In this document: piece after piece, positions 18,320 to 31,704 of the stretch
Layout of the letters: every line of letters begins with the position of its first letter
How positions within the stretch are numbered: the stretch's first letter is position 1
Origin: Vicingaceae bacterium
GTDB taxonomy: Bacteria; Bacteroidota; Bacteroidia; Flavobacteriales_E; Vicingaceae
Reading direction: 5' to 3'
Assembly: GCA_018402765.1 (NCBI GenBank)
Contig: JAGYIE010000004.1
Location: 54,603-118,602 of the forward strand
Length of the DNA: 64,000 nt
Made by a program: the position numbers and the translations under genes
Notes under the pieces: model-generated
What the model was told of the DNA's origin: nothing
The model's input: only the letters and a program-made list of their open reading frames with translations
The model's database searches: none

Positions 18320-21300
18320 TTAATTCGTTAAGACTATTTTTTTAGTTGTATTTCCATACTTAAAGAAGTAAATACCTCTTTCCAGTTGACTAATGTCTAT
18401 TGGAGTCTTTTTATTTTGAATCTGTACTTCTTTTACCAACTGTCCTGTTAAGGTGTAAATTTGAATTAATGAACCCCTTTCAGGGTTGTTGGATAACTCC
18501 AAATACACTGTTCCCATAGTTGGGTTAGGATATAGGCTAAAGTTAGCATTCAGATTATTTTCAACGGTATTACTAATAATTACATTTTCACAAGCAGATG
18601 TATCAGTACAAGCTCCTTTTGTAAGTATAACTGCATAGTTGCCACTCATCGTAGGTTGGTAACCTTGATTGGTAGCACCTGAAATAATAGCGTTATTGCT
18701 ATCACAATTAATCCACTGGTAAGAAGCTGCAGTAGCATCATTCGAAACCAAGGAGTCATTGATGCTCGATAGGCTTAAATTCAATGTGTCAATTACTAAG
18801 AATAGTTTAACTATTGAATCACAACCTAGAGCATTTACAATGGTATCGTAATATCGACCGCTTGATGTATAGGTTATATTGTTCTGTAACCATGTATAGC
18901 TATTGCAGGCCGTATCAGACGAACTAGAGGCAGTCGGATTGTTGATGGTCAAATTCAATGTAACAACCGAATCACAACCTGCAGCATTGGTCAGCGTAAA
19001 TGTTGGTGAAGAAGTACTTGCGCTGTACGTTACTCCATCAATCCATGTGTAAGTATCACAAGCAGCCTGAATATCTGTTGCTGTAGTTGAATTGTTGATG
19101 GTCAAATTCAACGTAACTATAGAATCACAACCTGCAACATTCGTCAGCGTAAATGTTGGTGAAGAAGTACTTGCGCTGTACGTTACTCCATCAATCCATG
19201 TATAAGTATCACAAGCATTCTGAATATCGGTTCCTGTAGTTGAATTGTTGATGGTCAAATTCAATGTAACAACCGAATCACAACCTGCAGCATTCGTCAA
19301 CGTAAATGTTGGTGAAGAAGTACTTGCGCTGTACGTTACTCCATCAATCCATGTATAAGTATCACAAGCATTCTGAATATCTGTTGCTGTAGTTGAATTG
19401 TTGATGGTCAAGTTTAATGTAACCACCGAATCACAACCTGCAGCATTCGTCAACGTAAATGTTGGAGAAGAAGTACTTGCGGTGTACGTTATTCCATCAA
19501 TCCAAGTATAGGTATCACAAGCAGTCTGAATATCTGTTGCCGTAGTTGAATTGTTGATCGTTAAATCTAAAGTCACCACCGAATCACAACCTGCAACATT
19601 CGTCAACGTAAACGTTGGTGTAGAAGTACTTGCGGTGTACGTTATTCCATCAATCCATGTATAAGTATCACAAGCAGCCTGAATATCTGTTCCGGTGTTT
19701 GAATTATTAATCGTCAAGTTTAATGTAACCACCGAATCACAACCTGCAGCATTCGTCAACGTAAATGTTGGAGAAGAAGTGCTTGCGGTGTACGTCACCC
19801 CATCAATCCATGTATAAGTATCACAAGCAGTTTGAATATCTGTTGCCGTAGTTGAATTGTTGATCGTTAAATCTAAAGTCACCACCGAATCACAACCTGC
19901 CGCATTTGTCAACGTAAATGTTGGTGAAGAAGTACTTGCGGTGTACGTTATGCCATCAATCCAAGTATAGGTATCACAAGCAGTCTGAATATCTGTTGCT
20001 GTAGTTGAATTGTTGATGGTCAAGTTCAATGTGACTACCGAATCACTACCCAATGAATTTGTTAAGGTATCTGTTGGAGTGTTCGTGCTTACAGTGTATG
20101 TTATTCCATTTATCCACGTAAAAGAATCACATGCAGTTTGAATGTCGGTTCCTGAAAATGGACTATTAATGGTTAGATTCAACACTTCGATGGAATCACA
20201 ACCTGCTGACCCAATAATTGTATCTGAATAAACTCCCGTTGCGGTATAGGTTACCCCATTTATTGGCCATGTATAAGAGGTTAATGATACAATATTGCTG
20301 TAACTAATAATCTGATTACTAACGTCAACATAAACATCAGCAGTAGAGCTACAGCCGTAAACATTTGTTGCAGTTACTGCATAGGTAGTGCTGACCGTTG
20401 GCGAAACGGTAATTGAATTTGTCGTTGAGCCATTACTCCAAGCATAATAATTTGCTCCGCTAGCAGTAATGGTTTTAGTACTTCCATTGCACATTTGTAC
20501 TGTATCTGCTAAATTCAGAGATATGTTTCCATCAATAATTACAACCTGATCAGATACAGTTTGGCATTCATTGCTTACTTGTACCCAATAAGAACCTGCG
20601 CTACTCACATTTATTGAGCTTGTAGTAGCACCTGTTGACCACAGATAATTCGCACCTGTGTTGGTAGCATCAAGCACCGTATTTTGTCCATTACACAAAC
20701 CTTGATTGTTTCCTAGATTAACTGTAAGCTGAGGCTTATTAGATAGAATAACCGTATCACTTGTTGAAAAACAAGCATTACTGAGTGTGGCTGTATACAT
20801 TCCGGGTATGGCCGTTGTTATGGTCGAATCTGTAGAACCAGTACTCCATAAAAATTGGTCAGTAGAAGCTCCTGCATTAAATGTAACCGGTGTATTTACG
20901 CAAACCAACGTGTCATTGCCTAAGCTTAATGTTGGTGCAATTAACGAGTTAACTTGAATAGTATCGAAGTTATCTCCACAAGCATTACTTGCAACCACAC
21001 TATACGTTCCTGGTTGAGTAATCATAATGCTTGATGTAGTATCTCCTGTAGACCATAGAAAACTACTTGCATTTTGGGCAGCTGCAGTCAACTGAACAGA
21101 ATCACCATTACAGATAATAGTATCGTTGCCCAACTGCACAGTGGGCAAAGGGTTAATTGCAAAGTCCAACCCATTGTCTGAACCAATGGTAGGAGGATTC
21201 GAAGCAATTACTCTTACACGATAATCATCAGAAAAATCATAAGTTTCGGGTAATGTTGCCGTAATAGTTTGCGCACTGGTAGAGGTTACTTGCCCTATGT

Positions 21301-23689
21301 TTACAACTTGTCCATTAAATGAACCTGCTGAATCTGATAATTGAACAGTGAACGTATTTCCCGGAAGAAAAGTAGCCGACAAACCAAAGTTAACTTGCAG
21401 GGTATCTGTAGAGCAATATGAAGAGTTAGAAATAGATGCTGTAGTTATTCCATTGGTATTTGCAATAGTGAAAAAATCATCACTTTGATCTATCAATGTT
21501 CCCGAAACAGTACTTATTCTTAATTTACATGTACTAGAGATAGGTTCGTTAATCAGCCAATTCCAAGTTTCTGGGTTGTTCGGCACATTCCGGAGCAGCG
21601 TATCCCATGTTATGCCATTGTCTGTGGTGATTTCTAAGTTTATGTTTTCAAACGTATTAAGCGTAGCCCATTCTACAGTTTGAAGTGTTCCATTCCCCCA
21701 TATTTCGCCTCCATTCGCAGCAATAATTTGCACATAATCATCAAAATAGCGATAATATGAATACCCATCAAAAACGCCTCCATGGTATTTGTTTGCCGTA
21801 AGTTGATTGGGCATAACAGATGAAAATGAGAAATTAGACGTATCTGTATACAACGGATTAGTAATATCGGTTGCTCTAATTTTTAGCTGGTTGCTAGCTA
21901 CGCGGGGTACTACCCAATTGGCGTACTTATCAATGCCTGGCGCTACACCTATTACCGACCAATTGGCGCCATTATCTGCACTGTACTCTAATTTAATGGA
22001 ATCTACATCTGCATTTTGCCATTGTATATATTGGCCAGAGCCAGCTTCAAATACTTCACCTCCATTTGGATAAGAAATAGCAATATTCGGGCTCGGTATG
22101 GTGAAAGGATCATCACTTACATCGGTTAAACCTACTGCTACATCTGAAATGCGGATGCGGCACAATGAAGAAGGCGTGCTTGGTATATACCAATCGTATT
22201 CTAACTGAGAAGCGGGTATGTTTTCGGCAAGTGTGTCCCAAGAAAGTCCGTCATCATACGTCACTTCAATGGTTACATTGGTTGCATTATTAAAATCCCA
22301 CACAATGGTTTCGGTGGTAGCCGAAAACCACATTTCGTTGCCGTTGGGGCTTATCACGGTAATACGTGAAGTATCATTGTTTGCTTGCGCATAGCCATCA
22401 AATGCCCCCCCATGGTATTTTACACTATCAGAAGTTATAAGATGGACCACCTCAAAGCTTTGATCAGAAACATCAACAACACTTGAATCTGTATTGTCTG
22501 ATACGCGTATTAAATAGTTCGGGCTGAGGGCATTTGGAATAATCCAATTGGCAAAACCGTGCGATCCAGCGGCGGTGTCTATTAAGTTCCAATTGGCACC
22601 ATTGTCTGCGCTATATTCAAAAGCTACGGTATTTACACCATTTGCAATCCATTGAATATATTGGCCGGAAGTGGCCTCCAATTGCTCATTACCGTTGGGA
22701 AATAAGACTTGAATGGACGAAGGTACTATCTGCCACAATGAATCTGATATGGTTTGAATATTTGGTGCAGCGGACGTTAATTTTAGCAAACAACTATCAC
22801 TAGGCGTATTCGGCACCTGCCACGTGTAAAATAATTGTTGTGTACTTATGTTGCTATCTAACAGCAGCCAAGTCCTTCCATTATTAATGCTGTACTCAAT
22901 ATTGATTCGATCAATATTATTACTCGTCCAACTTATGGTGTCAATGGTTGCCGGAATTAATCGCTCTCCTCCGTTGGCCTTTAGTATGGTAAGGCTATTG
23001 GGTAAATTATTCGATAAACTGTAACCATCATAGTTACCGCCAAAGTATTTCGCTGTATCCTTTAGAGTTGGTGAAGTAATGGAATATGCCCCACTTGTAT
23101 CTGCAGTAACGGTATCTCCTATATTATAAACACGCAACCTCGCTTGGTTGGTCAATGTATCAGGTATCACCCAATTGGCATAACCATCATAGCCTTGCGC
23201 ATAGCTCAGGAATGACCAAGTGGCACCATTGTCTAGGGAATAGTCAATTCCAACCGTATCAATGCCCTTAGCATTCCAAGCTACGTATTGGCCTGATGCT
23301 GCATCAAGCTGCGTACCTAAAATTGGATAATCGAGCTGTATAGTTGGATCTGGAATGGTAAAGATGCCGCTGGTAGATTGGGTAAAGTTTAAAATGCTGG
23401 TAATACGTACCCGCGCAGTGGTGGTGCTGATAGAAGGCACTTTCCACGTATAAGTAAATGCGCTTGAGGGCAAAGAGTTCACAAGCGTAACCCAAGTAAG
23501 CCCGCTGTCTAGGGAATATTGTATTTGTATGTTATCTACATTCAAAAAATTCCAACTAATGGTTTGTTCACTAGCACCCGGCCACGTTTCTCCTCCTGCC
23601 GGAGAAATAAGTTGCAGACTTTGCCCAGTAACTTCCACAGCAGCAAAGGCCAACAATAGCAGCGTAATTTTTTTTAACCAATTAATCAT
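18320..23689 (-). CDS. Large repetitive cell-surface protein, T9SS type A sorting domain
   Basis: Signal peptide; Ig-like/SGNGGE-type modules; 153-bp tandem repeats; C-terminal FSLYPNPTMGTVYLEL...GIYFFKYGNTTKKIVLTN. Confidence 0.9.
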   Translation of the reverse strand: MINWLKKITLLLLAFAAVEVTGQSLQLISPAGGETWPGASEQTISWNFLNVDNIQIQYSLDSGLTWVTLVNSLPSSAFTYTWKVPSISTTTARVRITSILNFTQSTSGIFTIPDPTIQLDYPILGTQLDAASGQYVAWNAKGIDTVGIDYSLDNGATWSFLSYAQGYDGYANWVIPDTLTNQARLRVYNIGDTVTADTSGAYSITSPTLKDTAKYFGGNYDGYSLSNNLPNSLTILKANGGERLIPATIDTISWTSNNIDRINIEYSINNGRTWLLLDSNISTQQLFYTWQVPNTPSDSCLLKLTSAAPNIQTISDSLWQIVPSSIQVLFPNGNEQLEATSGQYIQWIANGVNTVAFEYSADNGANWNLIDTAAGSHGFANWIIPNALSPNYLIRVSDNTDSSVVDVSDQSFEVVHLITSDSVKYHGGAFDGYAQANNDTSRITVISPNGNEMWFSATTETIVWDFNNATNVTIEVTYDDGLSWDTLAENIPASQLEYDWYIPSTPSSLCRIRISDVAVGLTDVSDDPFTIPSPNIAISYPNGGEVFEAGSGQYIQWQNADVDSIKLEYSADNGANWSVIGVAPGIDKYANWVVPRVASNQLKIRATDITNPLYTDTSNFSFSSVMPNQLTANKYHGGVFDGYSYYRYFDDYVQIIAANGGEIWGNGTLQTVEWATLNTFENINLEITTDNGITWDTLLRNVPNNPETWNWLINEPISSTCKLRISTVSGTLIDQSDDFFTIANTNGITTASISNSSYCSTDTLQVNFGLSATFLPGNTFTVQLSDSAGSFNGQVVNIGQVTSTSAQTITATLPETYDFSDDYRVRVIASNPPTIGSDNGLDFAINPLPTVQLGNDTIICNGDSVQLTAAAQNASSFLWSTGDTTSSIMITQPGTYSVVASNACGDNFDTIQVNSLIAPTLSLGNDTLVCVNTPVTFNAGASTDQFLWSTGSTDSTITTAIPGMYTATLSNACFSTSDTVILSNKPQLTVNLGNNQGLCNGQNTVLDATNTGANYLWSTGATTSSINVSSAGSYWVQVSNECQTVSDQVVIIDGNISLNLADTVQMCNGSTKTITASGANYYAWSNGSTTNSITVSPTVSTTYAVTATNVYGCSSTADVYVDVSNQIISYSNIVSLTSYTWPINGVTYTATGVYSDTIIGSAGCDSIEVLNLTINSPFSGTDIQTACDSFTWINGITYTVSTNTPTDTLTNSLGSDSVVTLNLTINNSTTATDIQTACDTYTWIDGITYTASTSSPTFTLTNAAGCDSVVTLDLTINNSTTATDIQTACDTYTWIDGVTYTASTSSPTFTLTNAAGCDSVVTLNLTINNSNTGTDIQAACDTYTWIDGITYTASTSTPTFTLTNVAGCDSVVTLDLTINNSTTATDIQTACDTYTWIDGITYTASTSSPTFTLTNAAGCDSVVTLNLTINNSTTATDIQNACDTYTWIDGVTYSASTSSPTFTLTNAAGCDSVVTLNLTINNSTTGTDIQNACDTYTWIDGVTYSASTSSPTFTLTNVAGCDSIVTLNLTINNSTTATDIQAACDTYTWIDGVTYSASTSSPTFTLTNAAGCDSVVTLNLTINNPTASSSSDTACNSYTWLQNNITYTSSGRYYDTIVNALGCDSIVKLFLVIDTLNLSLSSINDSLVSNDATAASYQWINCDSNNAIISGATNQGYQPTMSGNYAVILTKGACTDTSACENVIISNTVENNLNANFSLYPNPTMGTVYLELSNNPERGSLIQIYTLTGQLVKEVQIQNKKTPIDISQLERGIYFFKYGNTTKKIVLTN
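18944..20014 (-). repeat. Seven tandem 153-bp (51-aa) coding repeats NNSTTATDIQTACDTYTWIDGITYTASTSSPTFTLTNAAGCDSVVTLNLTI
   Basis: Unit boundaries at 153-bp spacing (19096, 19249, 19402, 19555, 19708, 19861, 20014); diverged units flank both sides. Confidence 0.9.
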
Positions 23690-27798: not shown

Positions 27799-28143
27799 TC
27801 AATACATCAACTGCTTCTTTGAATTATTTCTCCACTCACTTTGCGATTGGTAATCGACAAAGAAGATCAATAGATCTGCTTGGGAGGCGTAGTCAACAAA
27901 ATAGATTTTTTTGTCAGCTTGAGAGGCGTATTTAACAAACGACCATAATCCTTGATTACCTGTTGCCTGCGAATCATATTTTACTTTATAAACACATAAG
28001 TCAGCTTGTGATGCATAATCAACTACAAATACGTTAATGTCTGCTTGTGAAGCATAATCAGTAGAAAATACTTTTTGGGCATTTGCTGCATTGCTAAACA
28101 GTAGAAGAAAGAATAGAAACAGGAGTGTAAAGGAATTTCTCAT
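27799..28143 (-). CDS. Probable 7(1) septoil-knot-like repeat protein
   Basis: Signal peptide then KVFSTDYASQADINVFVVDYASQADLCVYKVKYDSQATGNQGLWSFVKYASQADKKIYFVDYASQADLLIFFVDYQSQSEWR. Confidence 0.65.
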   Translation of the reverse strand: MRNSFTLLFLFFLLLFSNAANAQKVFSTDYASQADINVFVVDYASQADLCVYKVKYDSQATGNQGLWSFVKYASQADKKIYFVDYASQADLLIFFVDYQSQSEWRNNSKKQLMY

Positions 28144-28144
28144 A

Positions 28145-28381
28145 TTACTTTTTCACCAACTTTTTTACTAAAAGTACTACAAATGCAATCATCGGCACAC
28201 CATGCATTATGGTATCCCACCAATCGAGTAATTTCATGCCATTAGCGCCACCCATTATCCACTTTATTTTGCCAAATAAATGAGGCTCAGGTTGGAATGG
28301 GGCTAAACCTAATGCAAGGCAAGCAATGATGACAAACCATCCATTGTAGCTAGTTGGGGTATTACTTTCTTGATTGCTCAT
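28145..28381 (-). CDS. Small membrane protein (78 aa)
   Basis: Two hydrophobic segments; tightly packed in operon. Confidence 0.6.
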   Translation of the reverse strand: MSNQESNTPTSYNGWFVIIACLALGLAPFQPEPHLFGKIKWIMGGANGMKLLDWWDTIMHGVPMIAFVVLLVKKLVKK

Positions 28382-29249
28382 TTTTTATAAAAGGATATAA
28401 TTCTTGTTGGATAAATTGTTCTGGATATTCATTCTCATCATCAAAGCCAAGCTCTATATCTCTTCCATCGTAAGGGATATAGGCAGTCTTAAATAAATAA
28501 TCCCAAATGCTTAACGTAAGACCAAAGTTGACACCCATTTTTCGATCTTCAGGTAACTCTTTTGCATGATGCCAAATGTGCATTTGTGGGCTGTTGAAAA
28601 TATATTTTAACGGACCCAAATTAATTTTAAAGTTACTATGATTAAAGTGTCCTACAGCAATTGCAAAAGCATCAACAATAAAGAACTCTACTAATCCAAA
28701 GCCTAACAAAGCTAAAGGAATATACTGTATAAATTTATAGATTATGGTCTCCATCCAGTGGAAACGCAAGTGTGCTGCAAACCCCATTTCTTTAACACTG
28801 TGGTGCAACTTATGAAATTGCCATAAAAACGGAACTGCATGCAACAAACGGTGAACATTCCATTGGATAAAATCCCTAGCTAGAAAAAGAATTCCCAATT
28901 GAACCCAAATGGCTAACTCGTTTATTTTTATTGCTACCAAGTTGGTTACTCCGAATAGACCTAGGAAGTCGGTAAAAAGCGTAACAAATGCATTCGATAC
29001 AGAATTGTAAATGATTAAAGAAAAGATGAAAAAGTTGAAAAACATATAAAAGAAATCTAGCCAGAAATCTTTACGAATCAATTTTTGGTTTTTTCTCCAT
29101 GGAAAAAATATTTCTAACGCATAGAAAAAAATAGATACCGCTATTAAAAGGTAAAAGTAACTGTTCCACGAAGGGTTGGAAATATCATTAATTAAATAAT
29201 TCCAATAGTCGGTGAATCCCTTTATAAATATGTCTAAATACTTATTCAT
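28362..29249 (-). CDS. Sterol desaturase / fatty-acid hydroxylase family protein
   Basis: Histidine clusters HRLLH, HKLHHS, HMWH/HIWHH; start at ATG 29249 preferred over the TTG in the track. Confidence 0.85.
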   Translation of the reverse strand: MNKYLDIFIKGFTDYWNYLINDISNPSWNSYFYLLIAVSIFFYALEIFFPWRKNQKLIRKDFWLDFFYMFFNFFIFSLIIYNSVSNAFVTLFTDFLGLFGVTNLVAIKINELAIWVQLGILFLARDFIQWNVHRLLHAVPFLWQFHKLHHSVKEMGFAAHLRFHWMETIIYKFIQYIPLALLGFGLVEFFIVDAFAIAVGHFNHSNFKINLGPLKYIFNSPQMHIWHHAKELPEDRKMGVNFGLTLSIWDYLFKTAYIPYDGRDIELGFDDENEYPEQFIQQELYPFIKNEQSRK

Positions 29250-29254
29250 AGTTC

Positions 29255-29671
29255 TTATTTTTTTGTCGGTAAATTGAGTTGGCTCCAAGCTCCCATACCG
29301 CCTTTTAAATCATAAATGGCCGTAAATCCTTTTGACTTTAGGTAATTGGCTGCTTTTACTGATCTGCCGCCAACTGCACAATACACATATACAGGTTTGT
29401 TTGGGTCTAAAGAAGCAATTTGTTGATCAAACTCAGTTCCGCTAATGTTGTAATTGAGCGCACCTGCAATATGGCCTTGATTAAACTCTCCAGGAGTTCT
29501 TACATCTACCAATTGAATGTCCTCCTTGGTAGTAATATCCTGATAAAATGACTGCCCATCAAGCTTTTCAAATACAGAGGTAGTAGCGGTAGTTTGTACT
29601 TTTTTATCTTGACCATTCGTGCAAGATATAATGCCCATCGAAAGAGCGATAAAGGTGATAAATGTTTTCAT
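29255..29671 (-). CDS. Rhodanese-like lipoprotein
   Basis: IQLVDVRTPGEFNQGHIAGALNYNI...PVYVYCAVGGRSVKAANYL; lipobox GIISC. Confidence 0.9.
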   Translation of the reverse strand: MKTFITFIALSMGIISCTNGQDKKVQTTATTSVFEKLDGQSFYQDITTKEDIQLVDVRTPGEFNQGHIAGALNYNISGTEFDQQIASLDPNKPVYVYCAVGGRSVKAANYLKSKGFTAIYDLKGGMGAWSQLNLPTKK

Positions 29672-29676
29672 AATGT

Positions 29677-30084
29677 CTATTTTTCGTCTTCTAATTCAAA
29701 TTTTGTTTTTTCTACTCCTTTATAGCTGTAGAATAGATTTGCCCAAATAATTTTGGAGATTGCATAAATAAATGGAGAAAATACAATTAATACTCCTGCT
29801 ATAATCGACACAATGGTCCAATAACCTAAATCCAATCCGAGTACCAAGGTAGCTACCCAAACGGTAACCATTATGGCTACACCAATGGAGTAGGCTACAT
29901 ACATTGCACCAAAATAAAATCCTGTTTCCATATGTAGACTTCTATTGCACACAGGACACCTTTTTAAAACAGGCGACATGGTAGAAAGGTTGTAGGGATT
30001 TTTATCTTCGTAAAATTCTCCCTCATGGCAATGGGGGCATTTGCGGTTAATAACACTGTAAATTTTAGTTCCTTTTTTTATCAT
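29677..30084 (-). CDS. DUF983 family membrane protein
   Basis: NRKCPHCHEGEFY...RCPVCNRSLHMETGFYFGAMYVAYSIGVAI. Confidence 0.85.
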   Translation of the reverse strand: MIKKGTKIYSVINRKCPHCHEGEFYEDKNPYNLSTMSPVLKRCPVCNRSLHMETGFYFGAMYVAYSIGVAIMVTVWVATLVLGLDLGYWTIVSIIAGVLIVFSPFIYAISKIIWANLFYSYKGVEKTKFELEDEK

Positions 30085-30087
30085 GAG

Positions 30088-30393
30088 TTATATAAAATTG
30101 CAATTTTCCATACATCCAAACATATCGAGTATGGATCGGTCTACTAAGCTGTAATTAATATTTCTCCCATTTCTGGAAGAGCACAATACCCCTTTGTCTT
30201 TCATTTTAATTAAATGGTGCGAAAGTAATGATTGCTCTATTCCTGTATGTTCCATTAGTTGTGCAACACTCAAGGGTTCGTGTTGTTGCATAATGCTCAA
30301 AATTTGTAGACGAACGGGATGCGCAATTGCTTTCAGTATCTCTGCAATTCGCTCCATTTTATCAGCTGTTATTTCTATTTTATCGACCATCAT
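30088..30393 (-). CDS. ArsR family winged-helix transcriptional regulator
   Basis: AEILKAIAHPVRLQILSIMQQHEPLSVAQLMEHTGIEQSLLSHHLIKMKDKGVL. Confidence 0.9.
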   Translation of the reverse strand: MMVDKIEITADKMERIAEILKAIAHPVRLQILSIMQQHEPLSVAQLMEHTGIEQSLLSHHLIKMKDKGVLCSSRNGRNINYSLVDRSILDMFGCMENCNFI

Positions 30394-30427: not shown

Positions 30428-30603
30428 GTAAATAATTAAACAAAGGTTAATTCTTTGAAAAATATATCAATTAATCGCTGTTGTCTGATTATAGTACAAA
30501 AAACAACTATAGATTGATAATGATGGGTTATCAACATAATCTTTCATGATTATTTTTTTAATTTTCTTTCACATTGAAAGTTATACGAATCGATTAAATC
30601 CAA

Positions 30604-30772
30604 TTTAAAAGGTCATCGAGTGATTCAAGAAGTGCCTTTCGATACAATTTTTAGTACCTCGAGTGCTTGTCGAGCTTAGTCGAGGTATGATTTCGTTCTA
30701 ACGAAATTGTATTGAGCGGCACTAAAAACCACTCAGGGTACTTCTTGGATGGTATCGAGATGCCCTTTTAAA
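30604..30772. repeat. Large imperfect palindromic intergenic element
   Basis: Terminal arms tttaaaagg/ccttttaaa; long related arms; inner hairpin atttcgtt-ct-aacgaaat (30690-30707). Confidence 0.6.
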
Positions 30773-30837
30773 GCATTGACTTTTTGGCCAAAGGATGCGA
30801 CTGATAGGTCAATTATGTTTCCCATGTCAGTTCCTGT

Positions 30838-31223
30838 TTAAAAGCTGGTAAATCCACAGAATGAAAGTATTAATGTGATATAAATTAACTTTTTCATAAG
30901 GCGTTGATGTGTCGTAACTTCATTTTCTATTCTAATGCGCAACAAGTAAATTCCTTTTAAAGTGGGTGAATTAAAATTATACTCCCCTGCATCATTCCAA
31001 GTTCATCTGCCATTATTGTGCATTCTTCCATTAATGTCATATCGCGTATAGTAGACTTGCTTGTGTATAGGTTCTTTTGATTCTACTTGCAAGTATTGAT
31101 TGTTGCCAATCCGATGTGTAAAATACGCAATTATTGTGCTAGGGTTATGGATTTTTTCAATATTCCGTTTTCGTAAGTTGGGGTCAGGGAACGCGAGATA
31201 AGTAGGGTTGAGAGTTTTTTCAT
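30838..31223 (-). pseudogene. Remnant of a secreted T9SS type A protein
   Basis: MKKLSTLLIS start then frame change; NPSTIIAYFTHRIGNNQYLQVES...YYTRYDINGRMHNNGR*TWNDAGEYNFNSPTLKGIYLLRIRIENEV with in-frame TGA at 31013-31015. Confidence 0.65.
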
Positions 31224-31704
31224 AATTATAAGTATCTGTTTTGCATAAAATTATAAAAAACTTGCTATTTTAATGTTTTAATAGAAAAGATTTGTTTTTT
31301 TAACACTTATCATATCTAATTAATTTTCATGACAGTACGATTTTATGCTATCAAATGCTAGCGCTAGCTCGATTTGTCACTAATCAGAGGTGATACAACG
31401 AAATTTTTACTGATCAATATAACTTGTAAAAAATAAAATTAAAGAAAGGTTAAGTTAATATCCCCATAACAGTCAGCATATAAAAGGTAATCTAATGCTA
31501 AGCTTTAGAAAATATTGCTATGAAGTAGTTGGCCGATATTTATATTCCATAATTGAACGTTTAATCAATTTAACTAAAAAGTAATAAACAGAACATTATG
31601 AGGTATTTATTCGATTTATATCACCATTTGGTTATCCTTGTTTTTAGAAAGAAATGGGCAGGTTTATTTCATCAAGCTACTTTTATAGCTAATCCATCTT
31701 CATT

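Follow-up and report, generated by a model that had tools for sequence, protein, structure and literature searches.

The window, a stretch of 64,000 nucleotides from a Vicingaceae bacterium, carries on its minus strand a gene of the DUF6150 family (PF19647) whose product consists of six repeated strand-and-turn units and is homologous, through an intermediate sequence, to Q9PR55, a protein with a solved 7_1 knot. New here are the near-fixed number of six units and the behaviour of the turns, which vary in concert within each protein and are charge-paired; we consider the concerted turns a more unusual observation than the knot label. The window protein is most likely a hyperstable extracytoplasmic scaffold, a prediction that we develop below together with its alternatives.

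The DUF6150 gene and its neighbourhood

A six-repeat exported open reading frame had been proposed at 27799–28143, and both these coordinates and the six turn motifs quoted in the original prediction agree exactly with the sequence; the strand, which it left unstated, is minus. The parts of the gene are as follows:

27799..28143, minus: DUF6150 (PF19647) gene, stop codon included, 114 aa
28078..28143, minus: predicted signal peptide, residues 1–22 (inspection, conservation of Gln23 and the Q-rule, PMC5837995)
28039..28077, minus: unit 1, residues 23–35 QKVFSTDYASQAD, model strand 24–27
28000..28038, minus: unit 2, residues 36–48 INVFVVDYASQAD, model strand 36–40
27952..27999, minus: unit 3 and central insert, residues 49–64 LCVYKVKYDSQATGNQ, model strand 49–53
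27913..27951, minus: unit 4, residues 65–77 GLWSFVKYASQAD, with invariant Trp67, model strand 66–69
27874..27912, minus: unit 5, residues 78–90 KKIYFVDYASQAD, model strand 78–82
27832..27873, minus: unit 6, residues 91–104 LLIFFVDYQSQSEW, with invariant Trp104, model strand 91–96
27799..27831, minus: C-terminal tail, residues 105–114 and stop, model helix 107–113

By inspection, the N-terminus has a hydrophobic stretch that ends in NAANA/QKVF, with Gln at position +1, and this agrees with the claimed signal peptide. The predicted mature N-terminus, Gln23, is invariant among 78 relatives, as are Trp67 and Trp104. Gln at +1 after signal-peptidase cleavage is the Q-rule of Bacteroidetes (PMC5837995), and Gln exposed by this cleavage cyclises to pyroglutamate (PMC5837995, PMC10653852). 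Without its signal peptide the protein would have about 92 residues, made up of six 13-residue units of strand plus turn with a short insert ahead of unit 4; no catalytic site is evident in the protein.

The window protein scores 75.4 bits on PF19647, whose cut-off is 27 (E = 3.6e-21), and matches positions 4–98 of the 98 in the model; all 78 aligned relatives match the family as well (78/78). Relatives occur in 49 of 295 genomes from the class, 28 of 46 from the order and 20 of 396 from the phylum, and none was found in two other genomes of the same genus, one of them only 69% complete: DUF6150 is a patchily distributed accessory gene. The E-value and the relatives in the class and the order show that the open reading frame is not a chance reading. 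Of the database search proposed for a septoil-knot model, the Pfam half returned DUF6150, whereas no NCBIfam model scored above its cut-off, and in neither search of the window protein did we find a curated model named “7(1) septoil knot”, which we take to be a family name from an annotation database. A GLPGLI identity was rejected on account of its weak score (16.8 bits against a cut-off of 50). DUF6150 matches were absent from plasmids and phages (queries: the window protein, L077, L119 and the repeats of L113) and from viral contigs, PHROGs gave nothing significant, no viral structure matched, and we found no mention of DUF6150 in the literature searched.

The DUF6150 gene comes sixth and last in a run on the minus strand in which neighbours are spaced by about −20 to +5 bases; the other five genes are:

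28145..28381, minus: 78-aa membrane-protein-like ORF without a Pfam match, 1 base upstream of the DUF6150 start
28362..29249, minus: fatty-acid hydroxylase (PF04116, Pfam), ATG at 29249
29255..29671, minus: rhodanese-domain protein (PF00581, Pfam) with a lipoprotein-like N-terminus (lipobox by inspection)
29677..30084, minus: DUF983 protein (PF06170, Pfam)
30088..30393, minus: ArsR-type HTH regulator (PF01022, Pfam), first gene of the presumed operon

The remark that the gene sits last in an operon with membrane-lipid and sulfur-transfer genes is correct for this genome, with the addition of the 78-aa membrane-type ORF that the same account had missed, but it is uninformative because the gene context of DUF6150 is not conserved. 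Across 18 same-family loci and 80 other loci, neither the rhodanese, DUF983 and ArsR genes nor the membrane ORF recurs beside DUF6150; the sole recurrence of an operon gene in the compared loci is a weak match to the hydroxylase at L051, some 2.4 kb distant, and no neighbour is conserved except among related loci of near kin. Tight spacing makes co-transcription probable and would suit a joint function of the DUF6150 protein with the lipid and sulfur-transfer genes of its operon, yet with this record of non-recurrence we think such a partnership improbable. The ArsR-type regulator, which has several Cys residues, lies close to the rhodanese lipoprotein, and the operon might be sulfide- or metal-responsive.

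Three further features of the window were recorded. An imperfect inverted-repeat element at 30595–30790 (arms 30604–30617/30759–30772 and 30631–30650/30704–30723) is MITE- or REP-like, and the genome holds one more near-complete copy besides several partial ones. An exported-looking protein of 1789 aa (18320–23689, minus) contains many near-identical repeats (ATDIQTACDTYTWIDG...) and has a C-terminus that resembles a type IX secretion sorting domain; the end of such a domain is also resembled by 30905–31230 (minus), a stretch without an intact ORF and possibly a gene remnant.

Relation to Q9PR55 and the probable knot

Q9PR55 (UU089.1) from Ureaplasma is a solved 7_1 knot (PDB 8IWA, 8IWB, 8JRM). 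When the window protein, the family profile or several members served as queries, direct sequence searches of the PDB gave no match, 8IWA included; only the relative L119 and a profile of L118 and L119 matched, with L119 reaching 8IWA at E = 3.4e-6. L119 (87 aa, without a signal peptide) clearly belongs to the DUF6150 family as judged by its sequence: it scores 35.3 bits against PF19647 and 40.5 bits against the family profile (best of 2000 shuffles, 13.7), and hhalign aligns the family profile to L118/L119 with a probability of 98.1 (E = 8.9e-14), the units in register and 2-residue gaps at the turns. The AlphaFold model of L119, which is only moderately confident (pLDDT 78.9, pTM 0.66; residues 1–10 below 50), matches all listed Q9PR55 entries with a probability of 1.00, TM of 0.45–0.54 and rmsd of 3.2–3.4 Å. 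PF19647 membership, the sequence link of L119 and its fold match together support kinship of the window protein to Q9PR55, by a chain of sequence plus fold that leads through L119 to the solved 7_1 knot.

The AlphaFold model of the window protein itself (pLDDT 91.6, pTM 0.76) shows six strand-and-turn units. The first four of its PDB structure matches are all Q9PR55, with probabilities of 0.25–0.77, and the remaining listed matches have probabilities of ≤0.03, leaving Q9PR55 as the only non-trivial one. Global agreement with Q9PR55 is poor (TM 0.26–0.37, rmsd ~10 Å), possibly through an out-of-register alignment of near-identical units, possibly through a different arrangement; AlphaFold is reportedly unreliable on topology (PMC10672856).

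This poor superposition and the shortness of the tandem repeats are what an unknotted solenoid would lead one to expect, with one strand per turn and coils of 13 residues. We give that fold little credence. The original prediction had itself opposed an unknotted beta-solenoid to its knot, and no beta-solenoid structure appears among the PDB matches listed for the window model; moreover, L119 superposes on the knotted Q9PR55, and the number of units is almost fixed at six. Open solenoid families mostly vary in repeat number.

A torus-type knot in the window protein is highly probable, by our judgement and not by a computed value; for 7_1 specifically, the same kind of judgement comes out near even. 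What stands of the septoil-knot call is the DUF6150 family and the kinship to Q9PR55, whereas the specific 7(1) label, plausible as it is, is not established, because the window model reaches a TM of ≤0.37 at an rmsd of 10 Å and because P73136, a homologue of Q9PR55 of 112 aa, is predicted to form a 5_1 knot (Brems et al.; PMC9278004). The mature window protein could likewise have the same fold and family and yet form a 5_1 knot: the Q9PR55 core, residues 27–83, maps to about 25–90 of the window protein (mapped by hand, through alignments), so that some two residues precede it, and one winding would be easily lost because strand 1 starts at the mature N-terminus. This outcome is somewhat unlikely in view of the window model, in which all six strands are present, 24–27 among them, and of the conservation in the family of the unit that contains this strand.

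Unit number and concerted turns

The start Gln and the last Trp lie 80–81 residues apart in 121 of the 141 DUF6150 proteins in which both could be located, and most distances outside this range arise where the Gln lies within the signal peptide, where there is one Trp too many or the terminal one is lacking, or where the insert has another length. The number of units is thus six save in rare cases. L078 (5968–6294, plus) has five, which could be a collapse of repeats in assembly, and L178 (1498–1755, minus; also L191) has four, this gene and a full-length copy both lying in the genome G672 about 5 kb apart. L078 and L178/L191 are candidate lower-order knots. L112 (89–805, minus) and L113 (586–1236, plus) differ in domain architecture: about five DUF6150-type units make up the N-terminal part of a longer protein, which has no signal peptide and also contains a Ser-rich linker, a hydrophobic segment and an SH3_3 domain. 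There was no support for a strict 3+3 internal duplication, only units 3 and 6 standing out.

Within one protein, the identity among the six turns at positions 0–3 (YASQ in the window protein) is 0.84, 0.56, 0.93 and 0.83, as against 0.55, 0.21, 0.34 and 0.48 between proteins (78 proteins in both cases). The difference is plainest at position 2, with 93% identity within a protein and 34% between proteins: a single residue occupies it across all six turns in 66 of 78 proteins, and seven different residues serve as the majority state. The strand positions reverse this pattern, being unit-specific and common to proteins with differing turns, with between-protein identities of 0.81 and 0.78 at two of them. 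A tree built without the turn columns is weak, with one supported pair, and independent switches of motif are uncountable on it.

Gene conversion or a recent re-duplication of units would also make turns alike, and the same-codon fraction is indeed slightly higher in the turns than in a within-gene control (0.570 versus 0.522; 95% CI of the difference 0.014–0.084). This excess is small, and the strand positions of those very units have stayed unit-specific and common across differing turns, so that we find such an origin hardly likely; the window gene itself spells its four YASQ turns with several different codons for the same residues. The likeness of the turns is mostly not due to homogenisation of the DNA and is better explained by selection acting on the protein.

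In all 18 proteins whose majority motif is charged at both position 1 and position 3, the two charges are opposite (18/18; shuffling p < 1e-4, kinship ignored), and charge pairing is seen within turns (−0.33) as well as between them (−0.28). Such pairing fits turns kept alike for structure alone, stacked and held by salt bridges from position 1 to position 3, with no ligand, a reading that we place a little below even odds; many proteins, however, have a neutral Gln at position 3, and their positions 2 and 3 are still alike throughout.

We favour, with a probability of about 0.5, an exported, knotted and resistant DUF6150 protein whose six like turns form a binding surface or a ladder. The protein would be periplasmic or secreted and, after cleavage, its mature chain would fold into six beta-strands with short helical turns between them, wound as a (2,n) torus-type knot like that of Q9PR55, the insert that carries the Trp lying between units 3 and 4. 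Once outside the cytoplasm, the protein would be protected by this knot, together with a probable N-terminal pyroglutamate, against being unfolded or degraded by proteases. Selection would keep one short motif in all six turns and, being alike by selection, these would therefore probably act either as a surface on which a repetitive ligand, such as a glycan or an envelope polymer, binds to turn after turn, or as a cross-braced ladder. A bolder version, in which DUF6150 is a natural (2,n) torus-knot series with the unit number (four in L178, five in L078, six in nearly all others) setting the crossing number, and in which selection also keeps the turns identical, their motif changing in all of them at once as in a ring of paired charges or a multivalent binding surface, appears unlikely as a whole.

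Comparison with known knotted proteins

In the literature we found only one solved protein with a 7_1 knot. With its many exported members, its natural variants of fewer units and the intermediate sequence that links it to the solved structure, the bacterial family DUF6150 would permit testing how the complexity of a knot changes with the number of repeats, whether such knots arise after export and why the turns within one molecule must match.

Within PF19647 the window protein is an ordinary member with no important departure, sharing the signal peptide, the six strand-and-turn units, the central GN..W insert and the terminal Trp. P73136 is close to it in length, and its predicted crossing number is lower than that of its homologue Q9PR55. 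Q9PR55 differs from the window protein in having units of 11 rather than 13 residues, 26 residues instead of about two ahead of its published knot core, and no signal peptide, and the two are about 19% identical in a register set by hand; as judged through L119, they have in common the order of the strands and the insert between units 3 and 4.
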